From NCBI GenBank assembly GCA_002706365.1, contig PALM01000017.1:62001-126000 (forward strand): a DNA stretch of 64,000 nt, read 5' to 3'. A program made the translations under genes and the position numbers. This stretch comes from Flavobacteriales bacterium. GTDB taxonomy: Bacteria; Bacteroidota; Bacteroidia; Flavobacteriales_E; Vicingaceae. Positions 2,468-12,703 of this stretch are shown in pieces (positions within the stretch are counted from its first letter, which is position 1; every line of letters begins with the position of its first letter). The notes beneath the pieces are model-generated. The model was not told where the DNA came from. It searched no databases and was given only the letters and a program-made list of their open reading frames with translations.

Positions 2468-5400
2468 TTATTGACTTTGAGCTATCCTGATCTCTGATCT
2501 TCGGTTTAGTCGGTGATCGCTATTACCGCAATCTTTCTTCTCACAATCAACAATAGGTTTAGTTTCTCCAAACCATTTCTCAATAATGCGATCGGCACTA
2601 ACTCCATTGGCTATCAAGTATTGAGCTACTGCTTGAGTTCTGAATTTTGATAGCAACTCATTATAACTTTCAGGTCCTCTTTGGTCAGTATAAGAGCTAA
2701 TCTCTATCTTAAACTTATCATTGCCAAATAGCTTAATGAAGTCTTTGAGATTTGATTCAGACTCTGAGTTAATCGTCGCATTATCAAAGGCAAAGAAGAC
2801 TACCAATTTCTCAGAATCCTCAACGCTTTTATACACAGTTGTAGTATTCTTCAAAGAGCTCTTCATCTTATCTAATTCCTCTTCACTTTTAGCAACTGGT
2901 TCTTTGTCTAATGCTTCTTCTCCTTCCGGCAACTTATTTTCAATGAAGCCTAGAGGAGAGTATACAAATACTTTTCCTTCCTTTTTGATCTTGGTTGATG
3001 TTACCTTTTTCTCATCATCTATTGTAACCATGGTGTAGCTTTCATTCTCTTCTTCATTTTCCAATTTGAAGATGTAATTCTGCTCGGGATCCAGTTTTTT
3101 GAAAACGAACCTACCTTCATTATCGATTATAGCACTCTCCAATAAGGTACCGCCTTCATCGTAGATGTAGATCTTCTCATTCTTACCAAAATCACCTGGA
3201 AGATCTTTAAAGATCTGACCCTCAACCTCATGCGAGAATTGTTCTTCTAACAATTTAGCTTCTTCAATTTCAAGTGGCTTGAACTGAGCGACTTGATGTG
3301 TGAGTTTTTCGTATTTGAAACCCTCTTCTTCACTAAGGAATGCCTTTTCAATGATATTCTCATTCTCATCGATCAATACCATGGTATAATCGTTCGCCTT
3401 TCTGTCTAAAGTGAAGCTGTAATGCTCATCCGGATTCAATTTTTCGAACTTGAATTTCCCTCTTTCATCAGTCTTTACAGAATCTCTTAGTATACCATCC
3501 TCACCAATAAGAAATACCGTGACCCCTTTCATATCTTCTTTCTCATCAACAGAGTAAAGTTGCCCTTCAAGTGCCACCTCTCTTGGTATAAGGCGCTTTC
3601 TTCTTTCAGCTTCAACCTCGTATTCATCATATGGTAGCGACTGGAAATCATAGCTTCCATTGCTGATCATATTGATCAAATAAAGTGGAGACCCATCTTC
3701 TCTAACTAGATACAGCAAGGCATCATCTTTCATATCTCCATCAAGAGATGGGATTTTCAAGAAGTAATGCTTGTCGTACTCCAATAAGTTATACTGGAAT
3801 TCCCCTTTATCATTCGTCACCACAGTAGTGATCAAACTATCATTCTTATCGTAGATCTCAACTAAAGTATTCTTAACCGGATCTCCTTTGTACTCCAAAC
3901 GACCAATCATAGAAGTATAGCCCTTATTCTTGGCTTCTTCAATCTTATCGCTAGCATCAATGGTAGGTGCAATACTGACCATGCCATCTTTATCCATCTT
4001 TTCTACATTGTAAACCCTTTCGTTTTCATTGATGAATGCGATATTCAATTCAGTATCTACTTCTTTTACCTTGATCAAGTAGTCTTCACTAGGAGGTAGC
4101 CTGGTAAACTCAAATTTTCCTTCGGCATCAGTTAAGGTAGAGTCTATAAGCATGCCGGCATTATCAGTAAGATAGACCTTAACGCCCTCTTTAACATCCC
4201 CAGGAAGTTTATCAAATACCTGCCCGCTGAATTCCATCTCATTCAACTCAAGGTCATCAATGGCTTTTAATTCTTGGATTTCTATAATCTCATCAGTAGG
4301 AAGTGCTGTAAGCTGGAAGTCGCCCGCATCGATCTTTTGAATCGATTGTACTTTTTCTCCTTCCTCATCCGTAATGAACAAACGACTGTTTTCTACAAGT
4401 TCAGGCTCATCAGATTCGATCTTGATCATGTAATTCTCCTGATAAGCAAGGTTTTTAAAGACGAACTTACCTTCATCATCGGTATAAGCTTCTCCAATTA
4501 CAGAATCATTCTCATTGACTAGCAATACTTTGGTTCCTTTTACCCCAACGCCGGCATTTTCTACTAATCCTTTAACCTCAATGTTATTGTTGTACTTAAT
4601 GAATCCGTAAATATCATCTAAGCCTTTACCACCTTCACGATTAGAAGCATAATAGCCGCTAGTGTCTGAATCATAATAGATCCCAAAATCATCTCTGTTC
4701 GAGTTGATCGGACTTTTCAAGTTTTCAGGTTCTGTCCATCCTGTATCTGTTAGGTTGGAAATATAGATATCTAATTCTCCATAGCCTGGATATCCATTTG
4801 AAGAGAAATAGAACTCATCCCCTCTTAAATATGGGAAGAGTTCATTCTTCACTGTGTTGATCCTTGGACCTAAGTTCTCTGGCTCACTCCATTTTCCATC
4901 TACAATTCTACTTACATAGATATCCAAACCACCCAATCCTCCTGGCATATCAGAAGCGAAATAGAGGGTATTCCCATTGTCGGCATAATGCGCATAGCCT
5001 ACTGAGTATTCATCGCTATTGTAAGGGAAAGCCTTGAAGTTCTTCCATCTGTCCTTATCCGCATCATAATCCCCTTCAAAAAGCTTCAATTGGTTGATAA
5101 AGTCCTTACCTCTATCTTCACTTGCTACACGTGTAAGCATTACACGATCTTGTTGTGCGTTAATTGTGATAGGGCCGTCATTGTATGAAGAAACTAGTCT
5201 TCCATATACCTCTTGAAAGTCATTTTTCTTCTTTCTGAGTTTAACGGTATCCATCTCGTAGATCGATAAGAAACCCTGTTGGTTGTAATTGGTCTCTTCA
5301 TTTATTGTTAAGCTCTCTTCTCTATCAGATGCAATGTAGATGCGATCCCTGAAAAGGATTGCACCATATTCGTTCGCCTTGGTATTCATCCAATCCATTC

Positions 5401-5866
5401 GAACTGAACGAAATACTCTTCTTTCTCGATCCCACTTTTCAATTTGATCGAGAGATTGAAGCATCAGCTTACTTAGGAAGCTGGAGTCTTCCAACTCCTG
5501 GAATTTTATGAATTGCTGCTTAGCTCTTTCGAGTTTACCATTCGATTTAAGCACCTGTCCATAGTAAAGGTAATCTTCAGCTTGAGCTGAGTCTGAATTG
5601 ACCACCAGAGTGTAATACAATTCGGCATTTTGATAGTCTTTAACCTTACGAAAGGAAGCTGCGAGGTATTTTAATGGGGTGTAGGCATTTTGATTCTCTC
5701 TGACCTCTTCTTTAAGAAGGCTAATGGCGTCTGTGTAAAATTGATAGTTGTATTTATCAATAGCTCTCTTCAGACGTTTACTTTGAGAAGATGCATTGAA
5801 AGATATCGCAAGAACTGCAAACAGCAGTACAGCGCGACTGATATAAATGTGGTAACTTCTCAACAT
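2468..5866 (-). CDS. PorE-like OmpA protein: TPR, propeller, five beta-sandwich repeats, OmpA domain
   Basis: About 1132 aa when started at the ATG at 5866, which gives a good signal peptide (residues 1-27); an upstream in-frame TTG at 5890 is less likely. In order: TPR helices (about 30-110), a Tol-like WD40/PD40 propeller (about 165-420, with strands such as LYFASDMPGG and FYFSSNGYPGYGELDIY), five carboxypeptidase-regulatory/SpaA-like repeats starting near residues 425, 547, 650, 763 and 880 (each with a DxxGxFxFxxL core), and an OmpA peptidoglycan-binding domain (about 1015-1132, YTDQRGPESYNELLSKFR and NRRSEI). The architecture resembles the T9SS component PorE and the OmpA proteins encoded next to PorP/SprF paralogues. 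It probably anchors the partner outer-membrane complex to peptidoglycan. One regulatory-like domain is usual; five are notable. It follows the PorP gene by 27 bases. Confidence 0.85.
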   Translation of the reverse strand: MLRSYHIYISRAVLLFAVLAISFNASSQSKRLKRAIDKYNYQFYTDAISLLKEEVRENQNAYTPLKYLAASFRKVKDYQNAELYYTLVVNSDSAQAEDYLYYGQVLKSNGKLERAKQQFIKFQELEDSSFLSKLMLQSLDQIEKWDRERRVFRSVRMDWMNTKANEYGAILFRDRIYIASDREESLTINEETNYNQQGFLSIYEMDTVKLRKKKNDFQEVYGRLVSSYNDGPITINAQQDRVMLTRVASEDRGKDFINQLKLFEGDYDADKDRWKNFKAFPYNSDEYSVGYAHYADNGNTLYFASDMPGGLGGLDIYVSRIVDGKWSEPENLGPRINTVKNELFPYLRGDEFYFSSNGYPGYGELDIYISNLTDTGWTEPENLKSPINSNRDDFGIYYDSDTSGYYASNREGGKGLDDIYGFIKYNNNIEVKGLVENAGVGVKGTKVLLVNENDSVIGEAYTDDEGKFVFKNLAYQENYMIKIESDEPELVENSRLFITDEEGEKVQSIQKIDAGDFQLTALPTDEIIEIQELKAIDDLELNEMEFSGQVFDKLPGDVKEGVKVYLTDNAGMLIDSTLTDAEGKFEFTRLPPSEDYLIKVKEVDTELNIAFINENERVYNVEKMDKDGMVSIAPTIDASDKIEEAKNKGYTSMIGRLEYKGDPVKNTLVEIYDKNDSLITTVVTNDKGEFQYNLLEYDKHYFLKIPSLDGDMKDDALLYLVREDGSPLYLINMISNGSYDFQSLPYDEYEVEAERRKRLIPREVALEGQLYSVDEKEDMKGVTVFLIGEDGILRDSVKTDERGKFKFEKLNPDEHYSFTLDRKANDYTMVLIDENENIIEKAFLSEEEGFKYEKLTHQVAQFKPLEIEEAKLLEEQFSHEVEGQIFKDLPGDFGKNEKIYIYDEGGTLLESAIIDNEGRFVFKKLDPEQNYIFKLENEEENESYTMVTIDDEKKVTSTKIKKEGKVFVYSPLGFIENKLPEGEEALDKEPVAKSEEELDKMKSSLKNTTTVYKSVEDSEKLVVFFAFDNATINSESESNLKDFIKLFGNDKFKIEISSYTDQRGPESYNELLSKFRTQAVAQYLIANGVSADRIIEKWFGETKPIVDCEKKDCGNSDHRLNRRSEIRIAQSQ

Positions 5867-5893
5867 TTTTCTATTCCTATCCTTCTTCAATCC

Positions 5894-6820
5894 TTAAAAA
5901 TACCTTGGCGAGACCATCCTAGATCTCAGAATATTAACGTCATAGCCAATAAATACCTCGTGCGAACCTGAGTTACCTTGTCTTAAAGTCGTGGTAGCAA
6001 TATCGTAAGAATATCCAACTCTTAGTGATTTATCGATATGGTATTCTGAAACAAATACTACTCCGTACCCTCTTCTATAAGATGCACCAAGCCACAAACG
6101 GTTATTTATAAAGAAGCTGGCATTCAGATCAAAGAATGCCGGCTGGTCTATTGCAAGCCTTATTAGTGTTGAAGGTTTGAAGACTAAATTACGATTGATC
6201 TTGAAAGCTCTACCTCCTACTAAGATCATTTGTGCATTTTGTCGCACTGTACTTTCAATATTCACATTGTCTGCTTGCACACCAATTCTACCGTGATTCA
6301 AATGGCTTAGCTCCATTCCAATGTAGTTGTACTTATCGTTATAGTACATTCCAAAATCAAATGATGGAGTCCAGTAAGACTCTCTGCCTTCATTCAATGC
6401 ATAACCTCCGGATTCTCTATAATCGATCTTCGACCAATCAAAAGTGTAGTTGTAAATGCTCGCTCTTAATCCAAATCCTAGCTTCCCTCTCCCCGCTCTA
6501 ATTTTATAGGAGTAAATACCTGAAGCTGCAATGGTATTCTTTGGACCTAATCGATCGTTCATCATTTGGAAACCAAAACCCATATTCTTTCTCCTACTTG
6601 GTGAGTGTATGGCAAAGGATTGAGTAGTTGGCGCGCCATTGAAGCCTACCCATTGCGATCGGTGTACCCCAACCATACTCAACATTCCTCTTGTACCGGC
6701 ATAGGCGGGATTGACCAATATAGGGTTGAAATAATATTGGTTGAATTGAGGCGCATACTGAGCTTTTAGGCCAAGTGGTACCAGCAAAAAGAAGGACAAT
6801 ATGTAGATCAGCTTCTTCAT
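5894..6820 (-). CDS. PorP/SprF-family outer membrane protein
   Basis: A 308-aa outer-membrane beta-barrel protein with a signal peptide ending at LGLKAQ and the family's characteristic start (QFNQYYFNPILVNPAYAGTRG) and HRSQWVGFNGAPTTQ segment. Length and layout are typical of PorP/SprF. These proteins sit at the outer membrane in type IX secretion and, in known cases, work with a neighbouring cargo that carries a type B C-terminal domain. That arrangement is present here: the type B CTD gene ends 1 base upstream and a PorE-like gene follows. It is one of what are usually several paralogues per genome, so I do not assign the core porP name. Confidence 0.92.
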   Translation of the reverse strand: MKKLIYILSFFLLVPLGLKAQYAPQFNQYYFNPILVNPAYAGTRGMLSMVGVHRSQWVGFNGAPTTQSFAIHSPSRRKNMGFGFQMMNDRLGPKNTIAASGIYSYKIRAGRGKLGFGLRASIYNYTFDWSKIDYRESGGYALNEGRESYWTPSFDFGMYYNDKYNYIGMELSHLNHGRIGVQADNVNIESTVRQNAQMILVGGRAFKINRNLVFKPSTLIRLAIDQPAFFDLNASFFINNRLWLGASYRRGYGVVFVSEYHIDKSLRVGYSYDIATTTLRQGNSGSHEVFIGYDVNILRSRMVSPRYF

Positions 6821-6821
6821 C

Positions 6822-7601
6822 CTATCTTGTTAATTCAATCCAACCTTTTTCAATTCCATCATCAGACTCGAACATATAGAAGTAAGTGTCTGCTGGAAGG
6901 TCATTACCGCTTAGGTTATTCCCATCCCAAAAGGTGTTGTTATTATCGTAATTCGATCCTTCCCAGACTAAATTGCCAAGTCTATTGAATATCCTCACTT
7001 CATTATCCGGGACCAATTCCACATTCTCTATGAACCAGCTATCATTGATGCCATCATTATTTGGCGTAATACCGCTGTAGAACTTAAGCAAACATGGATT
7101 TGGATCAATTAGTCCAATGGTGAAGGTCACAGGCTGACTGCTACAGCCATCGCTAGAAACAACCTGAACGCTGTAATCTCCAGCAAGGAGACCAACTGTG
7201 CTAAAGGTATCAGCAGGATTGAATCCGGCACTCCAGTTTACAGTATAAGGCCCCTGACACCCATTTATATTTGATATAAAACCTCTACCATCTCGCTTTC
7301 CTGCGCAAGTCGCATCTTGTACACTTACATCAAAAGAGATCAAGCTACTTGAGTCGAGAAATTGCTCAAATCCCTGAGTGAGGATAGTATTGGCCGACTG
7401 AACAGTAGTAACCACAGGCTCTCCAACGGTATAGGAAACCTTTAGCGATGAGTTCTGGGCTTCACTTCCACCTGAACTTACCACTTCTCTTTCCTTTTGC
7501 ACTTGCGCTTGAATTGCATGCACTAAAAAAAAGCAAAAGAGCAGTAATCCAATTCTAGAATACTGCTTTAAAAGTCTCGATATGTCTATATACCTACGCA
7601 T
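6822..7601 (-). CDS. SprB-repeat protein with gliding-motility type B C-terminal domain
   Basis: A 259-aa exported protein. Residues 1-32 are a signal peptide. Residues 33-95 carry a region common in Bacteroidota surface proteins (YTVGEPVVTTVQS, LTQGFEQ). Residues about 95-165 are one SprB-type repeat (CQGPYTVNWSAG, LAGDYSVQVVSSDGCSS). Residues about 170-259 are the CHU_C/type B sorting domain, with the signature TPNNDGINDSWFIENVE, then RIFNRLGNLVWEG and LPADTYFYMFE. Such domains target proteins for export by the T9SS and pair with a PorP/SprF partner, encoded immediately downstream. Cargo proteins of this type are often thousands of residues long; this one is almost only the sorting module, so it may serve as an adaptor for the huge coiled-coil protein encoded 28 bases upstream (inference). 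Confidence 0.88.
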   Translation of the reverse strand: MRRYIDISRLLKQYSRIGLLLFCFFLVHAIQAQVQKEREVVSSGGSEAQNSSLKVSYTVGEPVVTTVQSANTILTQGFEQFLDSSSLISFDVSVQDATCAGKRDGRGFISNINGCQGPYTVNWSAGFNPADTFSTVGLLAGDYSVQVVSSDGCSSQPVTFTIGLIDPNPCLLKFYSGITPNNDGINDSWFIENVELVPDNEVRIFNRLGNLVWEGSNYDNNNTFWDGNNLSGNDLPADTYFYMFESDDGIEKGWIELTR

Positions 7602-7629: not shown

Positions 7630-10600
7630 TTATTTCAAATAGAGTATACATCTATATGCTTCAGAATTAACGGGGTTTTCGGTTGCATAAGCTGTGGCAG
7701 CTCCATTCCCCGCTTTACCCACATTGTTAATCTCGGTGTTTTCAACCCATTCCCAATTATCCGTTTCCCCAACAAGGAATGCAATACTTACTGCACCAAA
7801 CCACTCTGCTCTAGTAGGCAGCTTATAACCAGCTGCCATACAGGTAGTTGCAGCTACATACCAACTTGCTGCTGCTCTCTCATTGGTTTCTACACAGAAC
7901 CTTCCGTTGATATTGGTCATACCAGCAGGACAGGTAGCGGTATCTAAGAATGAACGCCATTGAGTTCCATCATAGCCTCTAAAATCATTATTCCTATACT
8001 CTATCATTCCTTCTACAGGAGTAAGTTGAGCGGTATCAACTCTGATTGCTCCCGCAACGTCCAATTTTGCGGTAGGATCTGTATCTACAGGAATACCAAC
8101 ACCCACATCTCCTCTATCTCTCTCCACGATCAAGCCAACAACAGTCTCCTGATCTCCTAGAATTTGGAACCAATTACCAGTTCCTGAAGCATCGCTTCTA
8201 TACCTCAAGGTGAAATTATTACCCTGACCATTCTCTTCAAATACGATCTGTGAGCCGTCTTGATTGTTGAGGTTTTCGATTCTTAACTCTGCAAAGCCAC
8301 CGTCTATATCTTCTGCAATATGAAACTTAGAGTCCGGCGTAGTGGTACCTAATCCTATTCTAAGGTTCGTGGTATCCAAATAGAAATCATCGAAGAAGCT
8401 GAGTGTATCTATATTCTTCCAGAATGCCAATCTCAGCGACTTACTAGTATCAACTACTACATCTGGTGATGTAAGCGGACTTAGATCCGTAATTATAGTT
8501 CCACCTGCATCTGTGACTTCCAGATCTGTTCCGTTTAGTATAACTGTAGCGTTCAATTCATTGCTTGAAGAGGTATCATTATCCAATACAATGTGTTGGT
8601 TGAGGTCTGTGCGAATGGCAGTTATGGAGTCTGCATTATTTGTAGAATCAGCTGCAAATCTCACTTGTAAGGAATCCAACTCTCTTCTATTGAAGTTGAT
8701 ATCGGTACGATGAACTACCAAACTATCTCTATTCGTATTGATGTCGGATCGGTGAACAACTATGCTATCGCGATTGGTGTTGATATCAGTTCTATGCACA
8801 ACTAGGCTATCGCGATTGGTGTTGATGTCGCTTCGATGAACTACCAAACTATCTCTGTTGGTGTTGATATCAGATCGATGTACAACTAAACTGTCTCGAT
8901 TTGTATTGATATCAGAACGATGAACAACTAGGCTATCGCGATTGGTATTAATGTCAGATCGGTGCACCACTAAACTATCTCTGTTTGTATTGATATCATT
9001 GCGATGTACTACCAAACTATCGCGATTCGTATTAATGTCGGATCGGTGAACTACTAAGCTATCTCTGTTGGTGTTAATATCAGATCGATGCACTACCAAA
9101 CTATCTCGATTGGTATTGATATCAGTACGATGCACCACAAGGCTATCCCTATTAATGAGGAGATCCGTTCTATTCTGATTGATATCGACTCTATGAGCGA
9201 TCAATGTATCTGAATTCAATGTAGAATCTGCCAAGTATCTCGTCTCTAGATCACCAAGATCAGATCTGTTATTCAAGATATCATTTCGCAATGCGATTAT
9301 ACTATCCGCATTGTCGGTAGAGTCAGCCAAATATCTAGTACGCAAGTCCAGTATCTCAAAGCGATGTCGAGCGAGACTGTCGGCATTATCAGTTGAATCT
9401 GCCAAATAACGAGCTCTTTGGTTCAATATCTCAAAACGATGTCTGGCTAAACTATCCGCATTAGCGGTAGAATCGGCAAGGTATCTTGCACGCTGGTTTA
9501 GTATTTCGAAACGCAGACGAGCCAAACTATCGGCATTATCTGTTGAATCAGCTAAATATCGTGTACGTAGATTCAATATCTCGAATCTATGTCTTGCCAA
9601 ACTATCTGCAACTCTTGCAGAATCAGAAACATACCTAGTACGCAATTGATTAATCTCAGCTCGATGTCTGATTAAACTATCCGTGTTTGCAGTGGAATCA
9701 TTAAGGTAACGGATTCTCAGTTGATTGAATTCCGCTCTTTGGTCGGCTAAACTATCTGCATTCCTAGTAGAATCAGCTAAATATCGTGTGCGTAGATTCA
9801 ATATTTCAAAGCGATGTCGAGCCAAACTATCCGCATTAGCAGTGGAATCGGCCAAATATCTCGCGCGTTGATTGAGAATTTCAAATCGATGTCTCGCTAA
9901 ACTATCTGCATTGTCTGTTGAATCCGCTAAATATCGTGTACGTAGATTCAAAATCTCAAAACGATGACGTGCCAAACTATCCGCATTGTCAGTAGAATCA
10001 TTGAGATAGCGAATTCTCAATTGGTTGAATTCTGCCCTTTGATCCGCTAAGCTATCCGCATTCCTTGTAGAATCTGCCAAGTATCGTACTCTCAATTGAT
10101 TGAACTCAGACCTTTGATCGGCCAAACTATCTGCTACTCTTGCTGAATCAGCCAAATATCTAGAACGCAAATTCAAGATCTCGAAGCGATGACGTGCCAA
10201 GCTATCCGCATTAGCAGTGGAATCTGCCAGATATCTCGCGCGTTGATTGAGAATTTCAAATCGATGTCTCGCTAAACTATCTGCATTGTCTGTTGAATCC
10301 GCTAAATATCGTGCACGTAGATTCAAGATCTCAAAACGATGACGAGCCAAGCTATCCGCATTGTCTGTAGAATCATTGAGATAGCGAATTCTCAATTGGT
10401 TGAATTCTGCCCTTTGATTGGCCAAACTATCAGCCACCCTTGCTGAATCAGCTAGGTAACGCCCACGTAGTTGATTGAACTCAAGGCGATGTCTAACTAA
10501 ACTGTCTCTATTGATAAGAATATCTGTTCTGTTTTGGTTGATATCTATTCGATGAGCCGCCAAAGAGTCAGCATTCAATGTCGAATCTGCAACATATCTG

Positions 10601-12624
10601 CTCTCTAGATCTGATAGATTTGTTCTATTCTGGTTGATATCTGTACGATGCACAACTAAACTATCTCTATTGATGAGAATGTCTGTTCTATTCTGATTAA
10701 TGTCGATTCGATGAGCTCCTAGACTATCCCTATTCAGATTAATATCTGTACGGAGATCTGTTAGTGTGTCTTGAATTACACCTACATCTGTTCTGATTTG
10801 ATTGATATCAGTTCGGTGTACGATCAAACTATCTCTATTAATCCCAATCTCAGTTCTATTTTGATTGATATCGGTTCGATGAACTACCAATGAATCTCTA
10901 TTGTCTGAGATATCTGATCTGTTCTGATTGATATCCGTTCTCAGCACGGGAAGGGTATCATTGATGATCCCAATATCTGTTCGATTTTGATTGATGTCGT
11001 TGCGATGAACCACCAATGAATCTCGATTATCTGAGATATCTGATCTGTTCTGATTGATATCATTACGCTGATTGGTTAGTGAATCCAATATGTATTGAAT
11101 ACTAACTCCCGCACCATTCTCAATAAGAATGCTATCGCCAGCTGCATTAATGCTTAAATCTTGTTCATCTGTATTAATGCTAGGTAATACACTCAGATCT
11201 ACAGTATAGGTTCCCCCAGAATCTACCAGTTCCAGCACGGTTCCGGTTAAAGTGAAACTATTCACCAACTCATTTACTTCAGAGGTGTCTTTGTAAATCA
11301 CGTTTACAAGGTTCAAGTCAGCTCTTAAGGAAGCTATACTGTCTGCATTAGCAATAGAATCAGCTACATAACGGGCTTCAACATTTCCAATTGAATCAAG
11401 TAGATATTTAATACTTATTCCAGATCCATCCTCTATTAGGATGCTATCTCTAGCTGGGTTCAAAAGCAAATTCTGATCATCTGGTCCAATCAAAGAACTC
11501 AAGTCGGTAAAGAAGGTTCCTCCGGAATCAGTTACTTCCAGGGTGGTGCCATTTAAAACAATGCTATTGATCAATTCATTTGAAGAAGATGTATCATTAT
11601 CGTCGATTAGATGTTGATTCAAATCGGCTCGAATACTTGTAATACTATCAGTCATTCGCGCTGAATCAGCCACCAATCTGATCTCGAGATCTGAAATTGC
11701 ATCGATCAGAGAATCTCTTTTTCCTCTACCCAGTGTATCAAGATCTACAGATGTGCGCAAACTGCCTTGCTGATATAGCTCCAAGACTGCATTATTCAAC
11801 ACCAAACTATCTACAAGCTCATTTACATTGGAAGTATCTGCTCCTCTGAGAATAATATCGAAACTATTCCCATTGGCATAGAAGGCTCTGAGTGTGGTAT
11901 CGTTGATTCCACTTAGCGAATCAAGTCCCAAAATTGGCATTAAAGGCACTGCAGAAGGGTTTACTCCCGTAAGGAAAAGTGTATCATTCGAAATGCTAAG
12001 CTGTTGATCTTCCGGAAAGATCAAATCATCCACTGAAATACCTCCTGCTCCTGTGATCAGTATCGAGTCCTGCGCAGCATTAACGAAAATGCCCTGGAGC
12101 TCATTTGTATCCGATAGGTCGCCAGTATTTACAATGCTATCGTTATTAAATACCTGTATGCCGGCTCCAGATTTAAAAATGTTTCCTGAACGTTTCGCGT
12201 ATAGAGCGTAAGGCACTGAAATCAACTGAGTATTGCTCAGTAACTCATATGATCCATTATACTCAACTTCTACCCTAAGGTAGTGCGCATCTGCACCCCA
12301 ATCAATATCACTAAAGGTAGCCTTTGCGCCTGTGCCTAGATTTTGTCCACCACCAATTACGGCGCTAAAGAGACCAAAATCGTTGGTAGTTATCGACATA
12401 AAATACTCTTCCTCATATTCCAATGTCCCATTTGGGGCTCCTGAAATAATGGCAAAACGCACATTGATCATGGTTTGGGATAGTACATTCCCATTTACAT
12501 CTCTTACAACTGCCTGATAATTAATGCCTTCGGGCGCCTGAGCAAAGGCAGGAATACTTAAGAGAAACAATAAAATGCCTAGCAGAAATGAGGGCAAAAG
12601 AATCTTGTAGAACCTTACGGTCAT
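7630..12624 (-). CDS. Giant repeat coiled-coil fibre-like surface protein
   Basis: About 1664 aa from the ATG at 12624, which gives a clear signal peptide (residues 1-29, SIPAFAQ); an upstream frame extension has no support. The N-terminal domain (PEGINYQAVVRD, SVPYALYAKR) is widespread in Bacteroidota fibre-like proteins. Three short beta modules of the form NELxxSxxLxGTxLEVxDSGG follow. A long helical region spans about 517-1310, containing sixteen 25-residue repeats (711-1110) and ten 14-residue repeats (1166-1305). A fourth beta module and a tail-fibre-like beta region follow. The last ~110 residues contain four cysteines and AASWYVAATTCMAAGYKLPT, which resembles FGE-sulfatase/C-type-lectin-like folds. 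No recognisable T9SS C-terminal domain is present, so the export route is unclear; the next gene carries one. A role as an adhesin or surface filament is inferred. Confidence 0.85.
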   Translation of the reverse strand: MTVRFYKILLPSFLLGILLFLLSIPAFAQAPEGINYQAVVRDVNGNVLSQTMINVRFAIISGAPNGTLEYEEEYFMSITTNDFGLFSAVIGGGQNLGTGAKATFSDIDWGADAHYLRVEVEYNGSYELLSNTQLISVPYALYAKRSGNIFKSGAGIQVFNNDSIVNTGDLSDTNELQGIFVNAAQDSILITGAGGISVDDLIFPEDQQLSISNDTLFLTGVNPSAVPLMPILGLDSLSGINDTTLRAFYANGNSFDIILRGADTSNVNELVDSLVLNNAVLELYQQGSLRTSVDLDTLGRGKRDSLIDAISDLEIRLVADSARMTDSITSIRADLNQHLIDDNDTSSSNELINSIVLNGTTLEVTDSGGTFFTDLSSLIGPDDQNLLLNPARDSILIEDGSGISIKYLLDSIGNVEARYVADSIANADSIASLRADLNLVNVIYKDTSEVNELVNSFTLTGTVLELVDSGGTYTVDLSVLPSINTDEQDLSINAAGDSILIENGAGVSIQYILDSLTNQRNDINQNRSDISDNRDSLVVHRNDINQNRTDIGIINDTLPVLRTDINQNRSDISDNRDSLVVHRTDINQNRTEIGINRDSLIVHRTDINQIRTDVGVIQDTLTDLRTDINLNRDSLGAHRIDINQNRTDILINRDSLVVHRTDINQNRTNLSDLESRYVADSTLNADSLAAHRIDINQNRTDILINRDSLVRHRLEFNQLRGRYLADSARVADSLANQRAEFNQLRIRYLNDSTDNADSLARHRFEILNLRARYLADSTDNADSLARHRFEILNQRARYLADSTANADSLARHRFEILNLRSRYLADSARVADSLADQRSEFNQLRVRYLADSTRNADSLADQRAEFNQLRIRYLNDSTDNADSLARHRFEILNLRTRYLADSTDNADSLARHRFEILNQRARYLADSTANADSLARHRFEILNLRTRYLADSTRNADSLADQRAEFNQLRIRYLNDSTANTDSLIRHRAEINQLRTRYVSDSARVADSLARHRFEILNLRTRYLADSTDNADSLARLRFEILNQRARYLADSTANADSLARHRFEILNQRARYLADSTDNADSLARHRFEILDLRTRYLADSTDNADSIIALRNDILNNRSDLGDLETRYLADSTLNSDTLIAHRVDINQNRTDLLINRDSLVVHRTDINTNRDSLVVHRSDINTNRDSLVVHRSDINTNRDSLVVHRNDINTNRDSLVVHRSDINTNRDSLVVHRSDINTNRDSLVVHRSDINTNRDSLVVHRSDINTNRDSLVVHRTDINTNRDSIVVHRSDINTNRDSLVVHRTDINFNRRELDSLQVRFAADSTNNADSITAIRTDLNQHIVLDNDTSSSNELNATVILNGTDLEVTDAGGTIITDLSPLTSPDVVVDTSKSLRLAFWKNIDTLSFFDDFYLDTTNLRIGLGTTTPDSKFHIAEDIDGGFAELRIENLNNQDGSQIVFEENGQGNNFTLRYRSDASGTGNWFQILGDQETVVGLIVERDRGDVGVGIPVDTDPTAKLDVAGAIRVDTAQLTPVEGMIEYRNNDFRGYDGTQWRSFLDTATCPAGMTNINGRFCVETNERAAASWYVAATTCMAAGYKLPTRAEWFGAVSIAFLVGETDNWEWVENTEINNVGKAGNGAATAYATENPVNSEAYRCILYLK
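8710..9129 (-). repeat. Ten tandem 42-bp units coding a 14-residue coiled-coil repeat
   Basis: Read on the minus strand, ten consecutive units encode R[TSN]DINTNRDS[LI]VVH. Fourteen residues make two heptads, with hydrophobic Ile and Leu seven residues apart and Asn-rich positions between. Amino acids are almost invariant (only T/S/N at position 2 and one Leu to Ile), while codons differ freely between units. Confidence 0.95.
9295..10494 (-). repeat. Sixteen tandem 75-bp units coding a 25-residue repeat
   Basis: Sixteen consecutive units on the minus strand encode variants of RHRFEILNLRxRYLADSTxN followed by ADSLA. Two unit classes alternate irregularly (RHRFEILN and DQRAEFNQ types). Twenty-five residues equals 14 plus 11, i.e. 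two heptads and one hendecad, or seven helical turns. This is consistent with a coiled coil that has regular stutters. Confidence 0.93.
9831..10418 (-). repeat. Recent five-unit duplication inside the 75-bp array
   Basis: Segments 9831-10043 and 10206-10418 are offset by exactly 375 bases (five units of 75) and differ at only about seven of 213 positions by eye, much closer than other unit pairs. This points to a recent unequal crossover or replication slippage that lengthened the array. Confidence 0.85.
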
Positions 12625-12703
12625 TTGAATTGGTGTTTGATTGATATTTTGTACGTTCTTAATCAACTTTTGTTGCAAAGCTCAATCAATGAGCATTTTA
12701 ACC

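Follow-up and report, generated by a model that had tools for sequence, protein, structure and literature searches.

A candidate trimeric surface fiber with a long polar-core coiled-coil stalk, encoded beside CHU_C, PorP and PorE-like genes in a Flavobacteriales bacterium

The window considered here is the whole stretch of DNA that was analyzed, 64,000 nucleotides in length, and the genes of interest follow one another on its minus strand. The fiber gene (7630..12678, from the ORF call) encodes 1682 amino acids when counted from a TTG codon, although inspection of the translation favors the ATG at 12624 (residue 19), immediately ahead of a signal peptide, as the start codon. Downstream on the same strand, after gaps of 28, 1 and 3 bases, come a small type-B (CHU_C) T9SS protein of 259 amino acids (6822..7601; Pfam CHU_C, 79.5 bits against a cut-off of 27), a PorP/SprF-family outer-membrane shuttle (5894..6820; Pfam PorP_SprF, 215 bits against a cut-off of 22.3), and a PorE-like protein of 1140 amino acids (2468..5890), which was recognized through domain matches. 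In this last protein several CarboxypepD_reg-type repeats stand ahead of a C-terminal OmpA domain.

The fiber protein opens with a Sec signal peptide (MTVRFYKILLPSFLLGILLFLLSIPAFA-Q; 12541..12624), inferred by eye from the sequence and carrying no lipobox cysteine. This is followed by a beta domain (12181..12540) modeled by AlphaFold2 at a pLDDT of about 60-84, and then by a mixed region (11062..12180) in which, to judge from the sequence and a low-confidence AlphaFold2 model, short coiled-coil pieces are interspersed with beta elements. A long repetitive rod occupies the middle of the protein. Beyond it lie a beta-rich shaft (7933..8643), whose RIGLGTTTPDSKFHI motif appears tail-fiber-like by eye, and a C-type-lectin-like tip domain (residues 1583-1682; 7633..7932).

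Both ends of the protein weakly resemble parts of the mosaic adhesive trimer (MAT) fibers of Bdellovibrio bacteriovorus (PMC10769870; NCBIfam NF053851). The N-terminal domain aligns with positions 2-88 of the 162 in the NCBIfam model Bdello_MAT_N at 39.1 bits (E 6e-10), which is below the curated cut-off of 60, and six other proteins from relatives or from the same genome match at 24-47 bits, all likewise below that cut-off. For the tip, the first Foldseek match is the C-terminal domain of the MAT protein Bd2740, a C-type-lectin tip (8oks; probability 0.99, TMt 0.58, and a weak E of 0.22), with C-type lectins next, and a profile built from nine tips also lists 8oks at an equally weak E of 0.22. 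These matches are weak singly, but they come from opposite ends of the protein and jointly point to a MAT-type fiber. Further likenesses are the tail-fiber-like shaft and the occurrence of members with and without Peptidase_S74. In contrast, PMC10769870 describes trimeric beta-prism fibers, and the term "coiled coil" is absent from its text, whereas the protein described here has a coiled-coil stalk of 800 residues, belongs to a Bacteroidota host, and is linked to T9SS anchoring genes. A second MAT_N-like protein, 434 amino acids long and carrying a Peptidase_S74 chaperone domain close to the C-terminal end, is encoded elsewhere in the same genome (L030:6857-8158, G000:C42). The tip type also occurs in proteins of Stappia (L044:7298-10507) and Candidatus Omnitrophota (L042:9608-10516), suggesting a widely shared binding module.

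Other origins for the two ends were considered. No reverse transcriptase match was found in the genome that would indicate a diversity-generating retroelement acting on the lectin-like tip, and the search for a phage source of the tip gave no viral relative. The head region has neither a phage match nor a PHROG; Foldseek returned nothing below an E of 0.001 for it against the PDB and only low TM-scores against viral models. One orthologous fiber, of 2234 amino acids (L029:8483-15184, from G008), carries STVGGG/ASG repeats that look like a YadA head by eye, an identity that was set aside because Pfam gave it no support.

The setting of the fiber gene is conserved. Where relatives of the locus are named, they are Bacteroidia/Flavobacteriales metagenome bins. 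In relatives the small CHU_C protein is kept at this place with 41-60% identity, the fiber ranges from 646 to 2234 amino acids where the gene is complete, and extra fiber genes, several with Peptidase_S74, have been inserted. The N-terminal domain is present in 36 of the 41 genomes searched, and a PorP gene lies downstream of the MAT_N gene on the same strand within 18 kb in at least 16 of these 36 (about 2.9 expected) and within 6.5 kb in at least 15 (about 1.1 expected), the observed counts being lower bounds and the expected ones the product of a rough calculation.

The three genes directly downstream of the fiber resemble a trio for which a complex has been shown in P. gingivalis, PG1035-PorP-PorE (PMC9143113), and another has been proposed as static and wall-anchored, Fjoh_3952-3951-3950 (PMC12618676). 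As in the PG1035/PorP/PorE anchor, genes for a type-B C-terminal domain and for PorP/SprF occur together. The present PorE-like protein exceeds the PorE of those complexes in length and falls below the cut-off of the PorE equivalog model (276 bits against 600), and a fiber is not described as a component in the passages of these two papers considered here. Profile scans of the fiber itself gave no CHU_C or Por_Secre_tail match (type A/type B C-terminal domain); the type-B domain resides in the next gene. A tentative proposal, which we hold somewhat short of probable, is that the fiber is held by this CHU_C/PorP/PorE-like anchor through a contact with the CHU_C protein.

Gene neighborhood by itself is no demonstration of binding. 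A quite plausible alternative, compatible with the same stalk model though we would not bet on it, is that the surface fiber is independent of the CHU_C, PorP and PorE-like genes and that their proximity is due only to a common regulon or to a site that tolerates insertions. Bdellovibrio MAT fibers are displayed on the surface by way of a partner that is not identified in PMC10769870, and in several genomes with MAT_N genes, as for many MAT_N genes of relatives, no nearby PorP appears among the matches listed. Set against this, the same-strand order is kept in at least 16 genomes despite great variation in the length and content of the fiber.

The rod proved longer and more continuous than first described. 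An initial annotation had reported sixteen 25-residue units followed by ten 14-residue units at 8710-10494; both arrays are real, in that order and with exact spacings of 25 and 14, but their coordinates differ slightly. The 25-residue units (RYLADSTDNADSLARHRFEILNLRA type, residues 740-1139) span 10461..9262 and the 14-residue units (DINTNRDSLVVHRS type, residues 1186-1325) span 9123..8704. The two arrays are not directly adjacent, since a linker of 46 residues (1140-1185; 9124..9261) separates them, and that annotation had also missed the 21-residue units of three heptads that precede the 25-residue array (residues 540-739; 10462..11061), together with the single 32-residue spacing among them (residue 680 to 712). 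A short coiled-coil end traced by the register walk (residues 1326-1345; 8644..8703) completes the rod, which comprises about 800 residues instead of the roughly 600 first estimated and would measure about 119 nm if continuously helical, at 0.1485 nm per residue.

Every unit length (21, 32, 25, 14) equals 7n or 7n+4, and the register analysis that had been suggested as a check yields one unbroken register. Walked from residue 541 to 1340, this register comprises 104 layers spaced by 7 or 11 residues, and it crosses the linker unchanged by heptads and one hendecad. A blind chain search of the rod with the same two steps recovers 105 consecutive layers, compared with a longest chain of 12 layers among 500 shuffled sequences and with 27 layers when 11 is swapped for 8, 9, 10, 12 or 13. 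Each 25-residue unit divides as 7+7+11, and its best hydrophobic period is 3.572 (25/7), with a power of 4.95, where shuffles reach 1.52 at most; both the proposed 11+14 division and the regular stutter are borne out by this hendecad, which recurs every 25 residues. In the 14- and 21-residue zones the polar d positions keep a simple hydrophobic power spectrum from rising above that of shuffles, and the register there relies on continuity and the chain search.

Position a of the rod is mostly Ile or Leu, with some Ser, Phe and Val, while position d holds Asn in 42 layers, His in 29, Leu in 19, Gln in 8, Ile in 3 and Val in 3. Asn, His and Gln thus total 79 layers, with a longest run of 26 polar d layers. 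Arg occupies position e in 81 layers, and the rod as a whole lacks lysine and contains 119 Arg, 123 Asp plus Glu, six Gly and one Pro. The expectation of Asn and Arg at core positions was right as to Asn, but Arg sits at e and the second core residue is His. Similarly, the 14-residue zone, which had been called a canonical coiled coil, does consist of heptads (7+7, with core pairs Ile-Asn and Leu-His) but is not canonical, given that every d is Asn or His. Some 40 heptads, in which d is mostly a repeated NNH, occur in a genome of the same genus (G001).

Judged by its residues, the core shows the polar "N@d" pattern known from the stalks of trimeric adhesins. It combines heptads and hendecads with a hydrophobic a and with Asn, His or Gln at d, and the UspA1 stalk likewise has Ile, Val or Leu at a, Asn, His or Gln at d, hendecad insertions and a long, extended form (6qp4, 2qih); His@d, Gln layers and hendecads are also reported in the UspA1 paper (PMC6839023). 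The 26 polar d layers in a row compare with eight N@d layers reported for UspA1 in 2qih. Unlike a trimeric autotransporter adhesin (type Vc), the fiber shows no C-terminal YadA-type anchor in a Pfam scan and ends instead in its lectin-like tip; the orientation is reversed, with the binding tip C-terminal and the presumed cell end N-terminal. A Pfam MHC_II_beta match within the rod (31.7 bits, above cut-off) was rejected, as no stretch passes alone and the match sits in the repeats, and weak matches to SMC, an ATP phosphoribosyltransferase subunit, SsaO and PHROG head/tail families were attributed to coiled-coil or composition noise.

Solved structures give the same indication. When the zones were searched singly against the PDB by sequence, the 21-residue zone matched the UspA1 stalk 6qp4 (E 0.0055) and the 14-residue zone matched UspA1 2qih (weakly, E 0.24), these being the only matches of either zone and agreeing with the likeness to trimeric fiber stalks noted at the outset; a search with the whole rod additionally gave a designed protein, 8v3b (E 0.0068). 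In the 6qp4 alignment, with UspA1 residue numbers counted by us from Leu337, two units place their Asn at Asn347 and Asn375 and a His aligns with Asn382, all three of which are d-layer residues that coordinate chloride in UspA1 (PMC6839023). Single-chain AlphaFold2 models are of low confidence (mean pLDDT 50.4 and 44.0). They show long helices for the 21/25-residue zone and regular beta strands of about 12 residues for the 14-residue zone (pLDDT about 65-72), and neither contains the folded helical bundle that had been raised as the outcome adverse to an extended rod.

These strands invite a reading in which the stalk has two architectures, a coiled coil in the 21/25-residue zone and a beta-solenoid or other beta rod in the ten 14-residue units, whose richness in Ile, Val, Thr, Asn and Asp and whose Val-Val at the exposed b and c positions would suit it. 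We regard this as unlikely. Removing one heptad from a 21-residue unit gives a 14-residue unit, the register is unbroken between the two kinds, and 7-residue insertions and deletions are natural in coiled coils. The one PDB match of these units, although weak, is to a coiled-coil stalk, and AlphaFold2 is reported to misfold near-perfect repeats into unrealistic beta-solenoids (PMC11795689), so that the beta drawing is probably a known artifact. Because of this reported tendency and because the register continues, a helix is tentatively favored for the 14-residue zone.

The repeats also bear on the history of the stalk. At the protein level the 14-residue units are 95% identical, yet their synonymous codons match at 0.441, no more than chance (0.39-0.43 expected from random draws). 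In 119 comparisons, adjacent 14-residue units share codons at 0.345 where 0.43 would be expected, a slight deficit that is no more than suggestive. The corresponding array of the congener G001 (L021:8058-9998) gives 0.490 against 0.458 expected and has a different unit wording, ADSITVHR as compared with RDSLVVHR. Near-random codon matching in nearly identical units implies that the arrays are old or codon-diversified and under strong amino-acid selection. In both congeners the constraint extends to exposed positions of the units as well. The 25-residue array (9262-10461) includes a 375-base super-repeat of five units with an 83-base exact copy, and this duplication is more recent than the rest of the array. 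Assembly collapse seems an unlikely source of the repeat counts, as no exact repeat in the DNA of the rod exceeds 83 bases, a length that short reads could resolve. Literature searches on codon-scrambled adhesin repeats and on T9SS-linked trimeric fibers found nothing useful.

Taken together, we assign a probability of roughly 0.68 to the reading that the protein is a trimeric surface fiber with MAT-like ends and with the repeats as its stalk. A dimeric or otherwise non-trimeric coiled coil, for instance a periplasmic tether, is improbable, for although chain number is not given by sequence alone and the protein has weak SMC-type matches, such a tether is opposed by the signal peptide, the MAT-like N-domain, the tail-fiber-like shaft and the lectin-like tip, and the N@d pattern matches a trimeric stalk, Asn@d chloride layers being described as recurring in trimeric coiled coils (PMC12933892).

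If the trimeric fiber is correct, three copies of the protein would intertwine as a parallel coiled coil about 800 residues and about 119 nm long, in which a hendecad stutter recurs every 25 residues through the middle zone. Since a is Ile or Leu and d is mostly Asn, His or Gln, ions or water would be expected inside the core, between the helices, as in UspA1. Such weakly stabilized cores might keep the chain open during export and zip up outside. The MAT-like N-terminal domain would lie at the cell end, and the C-type-lectin-like tip might bind a glycan or protein on another surface. The fiber could then dock on the small CHU_C protein, which would bind PorP through its type-B C-terminal domain; PorP in turn would bind the periplasmic, peptidoglycan-bound PorE-like protein, and the outcome would be a static, wall-rooted adhesin.

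The locus therefore suggests a static adhesive fiber related to the prey-sensing fibers of Bdellovibrio. The stalk, if the model is right, would be an extreme natural polar-core trimeric coiled coil and could serve as a test case for the folding and ion binding of such cores. The larger result is its setting, in which a MAT-like fiber with a polar-core stalk like that of trimeric autotransporter adhesins is found at a conserved, T9SS-linked locus. More speculatively, small type-B CHU_C proteins of Bacteroidota may serve as docking caps that seat MAT-like trimeric fibers on PorP-PorE, making static, wall-rooted, long-range T9SS adhesins, with codon-scrambled repeat arrays determining how long the stalk is. 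If these readings hold, PG1035-type proteins, whose function is reported as unknown, would gain a role; a candidate cell anchor would be available for such fibers, a point left open by the Bdellovibrio work; and, with the N-domain in 36 of 41 genomes, relatives of the Bdellovibrio prey-recognition fibers would be common in Bacteroidota.
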